From contig JAJRQS010000275.1 in assembly GCA_024280135.1 (NCBI GenBank), forward strand, positions 1 through 11,067: a DNA stretch of 11,067 bases, given 5' to 3'. Below are positions 2,530 to 3,380 of the stretch, piece by piece. Numbering within the stretch: position 1 is the stretch's first letter; each line of letters starts with the position of its first letter. The DNA is from Bacteroidota bacterium (lineage in GTDB: Bacteria > Bacteroidota > Bacteroidia > Chitinophagales > Saprospiraceae). The position numbers and the translations under genes are program-made. Under the pieces are notes generated by a model. That model was not told the DNA's origin and did not search any database. It saw only the letters and a list, made by a program, of their open reading frames with translations.

Positions 2530-2569
2530 TGAACAGTAGAGGCGTTTTACAAAACGCCTCTACTGTTCA
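2530..2569. repeat. REP palindrome 1, overlapping the transposase stop codon
   Basis: Perfect 19-bp arms (2530-2548 and 2551-2569) are separated by AC at 2549-2550. The inner 28 bp (2536-2563) begin GTAGAGGCGTTTT and end with its complement, matching REP 2 except at one compensated pair. The last codons of the minus-strand transposase (GAA CAG TAG) are read from this element. It lies 13 bp beyond the rpoN terminator, so it may also shape the 3' ends of both transcripts. Confidence 0.92.
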
Positions 2570-3279
2570 GGGTTTTTTCTAATGTAAATACGTATTCGGT
2601 TTAATTCATTTACATCGCGGATAATGCGATCGTGAAAACGGGTTTGCCATGCGAAATCAGGCATATACGTTTTACAAAACGTGTTTTTACGGGATTGACG
2701 GGTCACGGCCGATTTAAATTGACGAATCATCATGGATAATGATTTTGATGATGGTGATATTTTTGAAAAAAATTGGTTTTTGGATGGCGAGGGCGGTGGT
2801 GTGGGGGGCGTGGGCGGTGGTGGCGTGGGTGGCGGCGGCGGGGGTGGTGTGGGCGGTGGTGGCGTGGGCGGTGTGGGCGGTGGTGGCGGCGGCGGGGGTG
2901 GCGTGGGTGGCGTGGGCGGTGGTGGCGGGGGGGGCGGCGGTGGCGTGGGTGGCGGGGGCGGGGGCGTAGAGACGTTTTGCAAAACGTCTCTACCACGATT
3001 GTCACCATCATTAATAATCACAATCCCATGAATATGGTTGGGCATAATTACAAATTCATCCAAAAAAATATGATCCCGAATTTTTTCTGATTCATACCAT
3101 TCATTCCAAACAATCATTCCTAATTCATTCAATTTCATTTTTCGATCAACAATTTCACCGAAATAATTTATACGATTTTTGGTCATGATCGTCACAAAAT
3201 ACGCACCATTAGATGCATAATCGTAATTTTTCAATCTAGCAGACGAAATACGGTATTTTCCACGAAATTTTATAGACAT
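2560..3279 (-). CDS. REP-associated tyrosine transposase (RAYT, Y1/HUH family) with a proline/threonine insert
   Basis: From the ATG at 3279 the product has 239 residues. RAYTs are HUH nucleases that cut and join single-stranded REP DNA through a tyrosine-DNA link. Family features in order: KYRISSARLKNYDY and GAYFVTI near the start (about 9-31), the HUH motif MPNHIHGIV with H82 and H84 on the second core strand, the helix SMMIRQFKSAV (about 183-193), AWQTRFHDRIIRD (about 211-223), and YIRKNP with Y232 as the likely catalytic tyrosine. Between HUH and the helix lies an unusual insert: residues 97-105 come from an in-frame REP (RDVLQNVST), followed by 58 residues of only Pro and Thr (106-163). 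The protein ends right after NPEQ, inside another REP, so the usual short tail is missing. A TTG at 3306 would add 9 residues, but the ATG fits the family start better. Core motifs look intact; activity with this insert is uncertain. Confidence 0.88.
   Translation of the reverse strand: MSIKFRGKYRISSARLKNYDYASNGAYFVTIMTKNRINYFGEIVDRKMKLNELGMIVWNEWYESEKIRDHIFLDEFVIMPNHIHGIVIINDGDNRGRDVLQNVSTPPPPPPTPPPPPPPPPPTPPTPPPPPPPPPTPPTPPPPTPPPPPPPTPPPPTPPTPPPSPSKNQFFSKISPSSKSLSMMIRQFKSAVTRQSRKNTFCKTYMPDFAWQTRFHDRIIRDVNELNRIRIYIRKNPEQ
2665..2684. repeat. Short REP-like palindrome inside the transposase gene
   Basis: ACGTTTT (2667-2673) and AAAACGT (2676-2682) flank AC, with an outer A/T pair at 2665/2684 after a T-G mismatch. 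It matches the centre of REPs 1 and 2 but lacks the GTAG edge. It encodes the residues around NTFCKTYM, just before the conserved AWQTRFHDR motif. It may be the remnant of a REP insertion or chance resemblance. Confidence 0.5.
2791..2964. repeat. G-rich triplet tract encoding a Pro/Thr run
   Basis: The 174 bp consist of 58 triplets that, read on the plus strand, are only GGG, CGG, TGG, TGT or CGT. The minus strand therefore encodes 49 Pro and 9 Thr. By hand count there is no A on the plus strand, 124 G, 27 T and 23 C, about 84% G+C. A 15-bp unit YGTGGGCGGTGGTGG recurs in frame (at triplets 7, 20, 28 and 41), so the tract grew by in-frame duplication. The many G runs give the plus strand (the template for the transposase) G-quadruplex potential. 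Confidence 0.93.
2966..2993. repeat. REP palindrome 2, translated in frame within the transposase
   Basis: A perfect 28-bp palindrome with arms GTAGAGACGTTTT and its complement around GC (2979-2980). It directly abuts the Pro/Thr tract. On the minus strand it is read as part of GRDVLQNVST, with no frame disruption. Compared with REP 1 it differs in the centre dinucleotide and at one base pair in the stem, changed on both arms. Confidence 0.9.
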
Positions 3280-3330: not shown

Positions 3331-3365
3331 CAAATTTATCCTAAATATTAGGGGCGCTTTGCAAA
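3331..3365 (-). promoter_or_regulatory. Candidate promoter for the transposase gene
   Basis: On the minus strand, TAAATTTG (3338-3331) fits the -7 consensus TAnnTTTG. TTTG at 3365-3362, which is part of the REP 3 centre, lies 23 bp upstream, at the long end of the accepted spacing for a -33 element. Transcription would start near 3324, ahead of both possible start codons. Confidence 0.4.
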
Positions 3366-3374
3366 ACGTCCCTA
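3349..3374. repeat. REP palindrome 3, imperfect, between transposase and topB
   Basis: Left arm TAGGGGCGCTTT (3349-3360), centre GC, right arm AAAACGTCCCTA (3363-3374). Eleven of twelve positions can pair: ten Watson-Crick plus one G-T (3354/3369), with a C/A mismatch at 3357/3366. The right edge extends to CTAC (GTAG on the minus strand). Relative to REP 1 it carries a compensated A-T to G-C change (3353 with 3370), so it is a diverged family member. Confidence 0.8.
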
Positions 3375-3380
3375 CCTTTG
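3373..3380 (+). promoter_or_regulatory. Candidate -7 element for topB
   Basis: TACCTTTG fits TAnnTTTG exactly and sits 22 bp before the topB ATG. Its TA comes from the right edge of REP 3. No TTG lies at 17-23 bp upstream; the nearest (3359-3361, in the REP centre) is only 11 bp away, so the -33 part is weak. Confidence 0.4.

Follow-up and report, generated by a model that had tools for sequence, protein, structure and literature searches.

The window, i.e., the whole stretch of 11,067 nucleotides that was analyzed, carries on its minus strand a RAYT gene with REP palindromes both within it and on its two flanks. The features are:

3348..3375, minus strand: upstream REP, imperfect (22/28 self-complementary)
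2560..3279, minus strand: RAYT / TnpAREP gene, 239 aa, starting with the ATG at 3279 in a frame that is open from 3306
3028..3045, minus strand: HUH motif MPNHIH, in the strand before the linker (from sequence)
2966..2993, minus strand: internal REP 1, a double-foot palindrome, perfect over 28 bp, codon phase 1, encoding GRDVLQNVST
2786..2965, minus strand: Pro/Thr-rich low-complexity linker, directly after internal REP 1
2686..2739, minus strand: helix alphaC, residues 181-198, whose type tracks the internal palindrome among homologues
2665..2684, minus strand: internal REP 2, a decayed copy just after alphaC, in a different reading frame (TFCKT)
2584..2586, minus strand: presumed catalytic tyrosine Y232
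2536..2563, minus strand: terminal REP (26/28 self-complementary), the palindrome extending to 2530-2569

The window protein scores 55.7 bits against NF047646 (cut-off 80 bits) and 19.9 bits against PF01797 (cut-off 23), and stays under the cut-off in both cases; NF047646 matches 36 of 36 aligned members at E<=0.001. RAYTs are marked by an HUH motif and a single catalytic Tyr within an IS200-like fold. Both sequence hallmarks are present, namely the HUH motif, with P80, N81, H82 and H84 (P-N-H-x-H) invariant across the 36-row alignment, and the tyrosine Y232, invariant in the same alignment, which we take to be catalytic from the known RAYT family. The motifs of the window protein read NHIH, WQ and YIRKNP, the last differing at one position (KNP for NNP) from the YIxNNP of subclass 2.4, and the variable insertion between beta3 and alphaC, with an in-frame REP within, is found as well. 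According to the accessible text of Quentin et al. (2018; PMC6006769), subclass 2.4 corresponds to group 4 in the RAYT classification by Bertels et al. (2017), has in-frame REPs between the HuH and Y motifs, double-foot GTAG...CTAC REPs and the motifs NH[IFV]H / WQ / YIxNNP (Table 1 there), and is abundant in Bacteroidetes and Cyanobacteria. The window gene is alike in insertion, double-foot REP and motifs. Judged by these motif and insertion features, it is an ordinary member of its group and probably belongs to subclass 2.4.

Toward the C-terminus, almost all rows of the 36-row alignment have a W and a D behind the NP motif. Because the window protein stops at NPEQ, the downstream REP at 2536-2563, whose GTAG supplies the TAG stop of the gene (2560-2562), has probably taken away these last conserved RAYT residues. 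According to the part of Di Nocera et al. (2013; PMC3733652) used here, GTAG REPs lie in many genes and are translated in frame, and the GTAG is often the TAG stop; the window gene is similar in both respects. However, those REPs, like the Rickettsia RPE elements, occupy many unrelated genes, whereas here it is one family, one part of the gene and the gene's own REP type.

The original prediction, made from the sequence of the window, described a perfect 28-bp palindrome translated in frame between the HUH strand and the next helix, here alphaC, and this is borne out: positions 2966-2993 read GTAGAGACGTTTTGCAAAACGTCTCTAC, 28 of 28 positions are self-complementary, and the codons on the minus strand are GGT AGA GAC GTT TTG CAA AAC GTC TCT ACG. 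The longest perfect arm across the window is 14, and in 100 mononucleotide shuffles the mean was 7.07 and the maximum 13. The same palindrome family was said to border the gene, which it does at 2536-2563 and 3348-3375, although an inverted arrangement of these flanking REPs is unreadable at the window gene because the palindromes are near-symmetric. The Pro/Thr run at 2786-2965 is encoded by G-rich GGTGGC-like repeats in AT-rich surroundings and is possibly an expanding repeat.

The core was further expected to recur in the host genome (G000, an assembly of 2.53 Mb, 79.7% complete). It does so at four sites with at most 3 mismatches, yet three of these are at the RAYT gene itself and only the one at C120:6006-6033 looks intergenic, judged by the surrounding open frames. 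Two other RAYT genes are present in this genome, each with its own different internal palindrome, and one of them is cut by a contig end.

Homologues were collected from relatives, from the order, from the phylum (there among the matches listed) and from a named-genome collection. A first set of 269 profile hits in 276 loci yielded 201 distinct intact genes. After adding 61 from one Flavobacterium-like genus, the final set comprised 336 hits and 262 intact genes, 74 hits having been dropped (18 duplicates, 38 lacking a recognizable C part, 3 lacking HUH, 2 containing N runs and 13 incomplete at the N end). In this non-random sample, fetched mostly by match rank and with a single genus contributing at least 61 genes, a palindrome with a score of at least 8 lies between HUH and the conserved Trp in 212 of 262 intact genes. 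As the remaining 50 have none at that score, the internal palindrome is not essential. Chance levels were obtained by permuting synonymous codons within each gene (40 permutations each; linker levels from the 201-gene set). A score of at least 9 in the linker from HUH to alphaC was reached by 134 of 201 genes versus 4.7 expected, and a score of at least 8 by 158 versus 10.6 expected. Outside the linker, palindromes of at least 9 were found in the N part of 7 genes (2.4 expected), in alphaC of 5 (1.3) and in the C part of 1 (0.65).

Such regularity could result from tolerated self-insertion, an option that the original prediction had already named. In this scenario REPs would multiply near the transposase gene, only the disordered linker would survive an insert, and template-switch repair would keep the palindrome perfect without selection. 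The linker is indeed unstructured and variable with tandem repeats, some linkers hold multiple copies (e.g., L049 and L286), and some palindromes are much longer than the 28-mer (arms of 29 in L015 and of 24 in L011). Long arms are expected from the repair of quasi-palindromes. The accessible text of Quentin et al. (2018; PMC6006769) also leans toward this explanation, since it regards the region of the inserts as peripheral and its influence on activity as small. However, palindromes of at least 12 occur in 99 of 262 RAYT linkers (63 kb) and in only 4 of 466 neighboring ORFs (444 kb); neighboring ORFs are mostly not disordered linkers, and the comparison therefore tests nearness and not tolerance. 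Two further observations speak against self-insertion, the fact that REP type is coupled to alphaC and uncoupled from the C-core, a pattern not required of a neutral insert, and the genomes in which the in-gene copy is the sole exact core. Overall, we consider tolerated self-insertion unlikely, though still a serious competitor.

The coupling was measured in 163 genes with palindromes, comparing same-REP with different-REP pairs matched on N-domain identity; the gene pairs in these tests are not independent. The mean excess identity of same-REP pairs was 0.217 in the alphaC segment (43 columns), 0.001 in the N domain (89 columns) and -0.015 in the C part (29 columns). Toward the end of alphaB, individual N columns stood out as well, namely E88 (0.32), N101 (0.20) and F96 (0.19). 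In partial Mantel tests the correlation between REP and alphaC given N and C was r=0.358 (0 of 1000 permutations as high), for REP and N, controlling for the other two, r=0.165 (0 of 1000), and for REP and C r=0.00 (489 of 1000). Within the N domain, the first half gave r=0.188 (0/300) and the alphaB end r=0.099 (0/300), while beta3, the N-side strand adjoining the linker, gave r=-0.001 (154/300), which disfavors mere nearness as the cause of the coupling. In the sequences compared, REP type is linked most closely to alphaC and weakly to the N domain, and shows no link to the C-core. In the larger gene set, the REP is shared by 162 of the 179 pairs that are similar in both N and alphaC, compared with 200 of the 16042 pairs in which both are dissimilar. 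The coupling of REP and alphaC in these alignments is not absolute: with N>=0.7 and alphaC<0.5, the REP is common to 31 of 161 pairs, at least one of which (L333/L337) shares it because REP residues fall inside the compared segment, and among the 148 pairs with N<0.55 and alphaC>=0.6, 53 have the same REP, compared with the 200 of 16042 given above, and 61 have different REPs.

Structure models of the window protein (mean pLDDT 84.5) and of L155 (81.7) predict no secondary structure across most of the linker (window residues 102-180), and place alphaC at residues 181-198 and 143-160, respectively. The Pro-rich run of the window model has a pLDDT near 80 and was not read as a fold. The top structure match of the L155 model is 4er8, the E. 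coli TnpAREP on a REP hairpin, and from this match and the order of elements alphaC would correspond to helix alpha3 of that protein. As described in the available part of PMC8266576, alpha3 contacts the REP bulge via K82; the E. coli protein (165 residues) is however a group 2 member with a bulged REP and does not belong to subclass 2.4.

The exchange of REP and helix can be followed at one syntenic Flavobacterium-like locus, and all evidence for a swap comes from its eight genes. Their upstream flanks are 80-91% identical; the downstream flanks match too, most pairs at 68-87% identity, and those of L151 and L063 begin at a shifted position. Four genes have a type A REP (AAGGCAATGCCTT-like) and four a type B REP (GATTAATC-like). 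In five A-B pairs the nucleotide identity is 81-90% in the N part and 84-87% at the end of the gene, and 44-50% in the alphaC segment, which is 86-89% identical in two same-type pairs of the locus. The tree of the upstream flanks has a single fully supported branch (100/100) with two A and two B genes on each side. This branch forces two changes of type and the best tree has three, the other inner branches being weak; one clade per type, i.e., a single clade for A, was rejected (p-AU 0.0005). Adding the N domain to the flank tree gives two changes, and the alphaC tree separates A from B. According to these trees, palindrome and alphaC were replaced at least twice at this locus while the flanking gene parts were kept at 81-90% identity.

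The best explanation, to which we assign a probability of roughly 0.6, is that the internal palindrome is a maintained cognate REP that forms one cassette with the reading helix. The transposase would keep its cognate REP in the disordered linker that runs from the HUH strand to alphaC, the helix that would read the DNA, and a replacement at a locus would change hairpin and reader together; the gene would therefore carry a substrate recognizable by its own product, even without a dispersed REP family. AlphaC would have to read the REP in this subclass, the protein would bind or cut the internal copy, and recombination at the REP foot may have made the swap. What speaks for this reading is the position of the palindrome, palindromy above the controls, the use of two frames, the coupling to alphaC and the replacement at one locus, all taken directly from the sequences.

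Somewhat speculatively, the internal REP could itself be the site of a recombination through which transposases of subclass 2.4 trade their reading helices. Single strands cut and rejoined at the in-gene GTAG foot would then swap the cassette of REP plus alphaC, and if this is true, foot recombination would change the specificity of substrate and enzyme at a single stroke and provide a mechanism for REP-type switching. The pair L278/L279 agrees at 54 of the 60 nt to the left of the REP foot and diverges immediately behind GTAGAGAC. In the other three swap pairs inspected, the matches left of the foot are 25/60, 19/45 and 17/45 (right-justified, ungapped), and because three of four pairs are dissimilar there, only L278/L279 shows a clear break at the foot. 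On the right side, each of the four pairs regains identity roughly 20 nt ahead of the Trp codon. We regard this recombination-site reading as a possibility of rather low probability.

If the encoded peptide were what matters, the palindrome would be a by-product. The same peptides do recur within a REP type (e.g., VETRHALSLQ three times), but between REP types they differ. Double-foot palindromes are in phase 0 in 79 cases and in phase 1 in 21; phase 2 is impossible in an open frame because GTAG would then read as a stop. L337 has the identical 28-mer twice and reads it in two frames, as VETHCSASL and RRDALQCVST. Synonymous sites are constrained as well: the same codon is used at shared residues in 86.1% of cases in the palindrome, compared with 54.0% in N, 50.6% in alphaC and 53.2% in C (954 pairs), which shows retention and does not prove selection, because both genes of a pair were chosen for having a palindrome. 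A role of the peptide is thus very improbable, and maintenance of the palindrome as DNA, as part of the cassette reading and jointly with it, explains these sequence patterns best.

The same codon constraint is consistent with a nucleic-acid role of another kind, the control element that had been offered as the second option besides self-insertion. Here the product would bind the hairpin in the mRNA or in replicating single-stranded DNA, and so limit its own expression or mark its own gene. As RNA, the window copy has a folding energy of -15.7 kcal/mol, and 0 of 200 shuffles were as low. On the other hand, translating ribosomes would unfold a hairpin that lies, as this one does, about 290 nt into the coding region, no RNA binding by RAYTs was found in the portion of the literature covered, and the palindrome is missing in 50 of 262 genes. 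We therefore rate a control element as improbable, below self-insertion. The earlier interpretation is supported in part; a cognate cassette is now preferred to both of its options.

The internal palindrome matches the flank of its own gene at >=80% in 56 of 163 genes, compared with 2.1% for randomly drawn flanks of other genes. Genome copies were counted for the GCATGC-centered types, of which 28 of 32 internal palindromes fit the core pattern (L079, L144, L052 and L113 were left out); the counts comprise exact matches, so that diverged copies are missed. In 7 of 28 genomes, the core has no exact copy besides the one inside the gene. For G103, G083 and G890 the location in the RAYT gene is listed, and for G341, G528, G339 and G497 it is deduced from a single core match in the genome together with an internal palindrome that fits the pattern. 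In 20 of 28 genomes the core count is at most 3, and in the other eight it ranges from 4 to 37. Because these counts are low, a dispersed REP family is often absent, at least as exact copies, and for such genomes an in-gene REP offers the transposase a way to keep its substrate. In G892, the genome of L049, the three core matches equal the number of copies inside the gene; their genome positions are not listed.

A REP inside its own RAYT gene is already known in kind from the subclass 2.4 account, as far as covered by the accessible text of Quentin et al. (PMC6006769), which attributes probably little impact to the inserts and is without the alphaC coupling, the in-place swaps and the sole-copy genomes. 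Orthologous RAYTs with different REP classes have been described as orthoswitch by Nunvar et al. (2013; PMC3686654). In the available part of that work flanking REPs are inferred to mutate and the mechanism is left open, whereas here REP and alphaC change together within the gene. The same text only speculates on the switch. Genes with their own REP beside the reading helix, together with natural swaps, are ready-made matched pairs and chimeras for the question of how a changing REP type and a changing RAYT specificity remain matched. The accessible parts of PMC6006769, PMC3733652, PMC2817692, PMC3686654 and PMC8266576 contain no mention of the alphaC coupling or the in-place swap, which may hence be new to print. 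The present analysis adds the regularity over controls, the sole-copy genomes, the alphaC coupling, the in-place swap, the decayed copy and the REP-supplied stop.

Several linkers show further peculiarities. Those of L191, L194, L228 and L027, and also of L325 and L334, contain two imperfectly symmetric palindromes each; the loops of the paired palindromes are (near) reverse complements, e.g., GACCTGCGTGTC and GAACACGCAGGTTC, an arrangement resembling a REP paired with an inverted one on the two sides of the variable linker. The linker of L286 consists of twelve ETRLIA units in tandem, 9 of which hold a GATTAATC-type palindrome of at least 8. In-gene palindromes exceed the 28-mer with arms of 26 bp in L168, 29 in L015, 24 in L011, 24 in L056 and 23 in L129. 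In L337, L338 and L333 a second REP follows alphaC in another frame, in the same region in which the window gene has its decayed copy.
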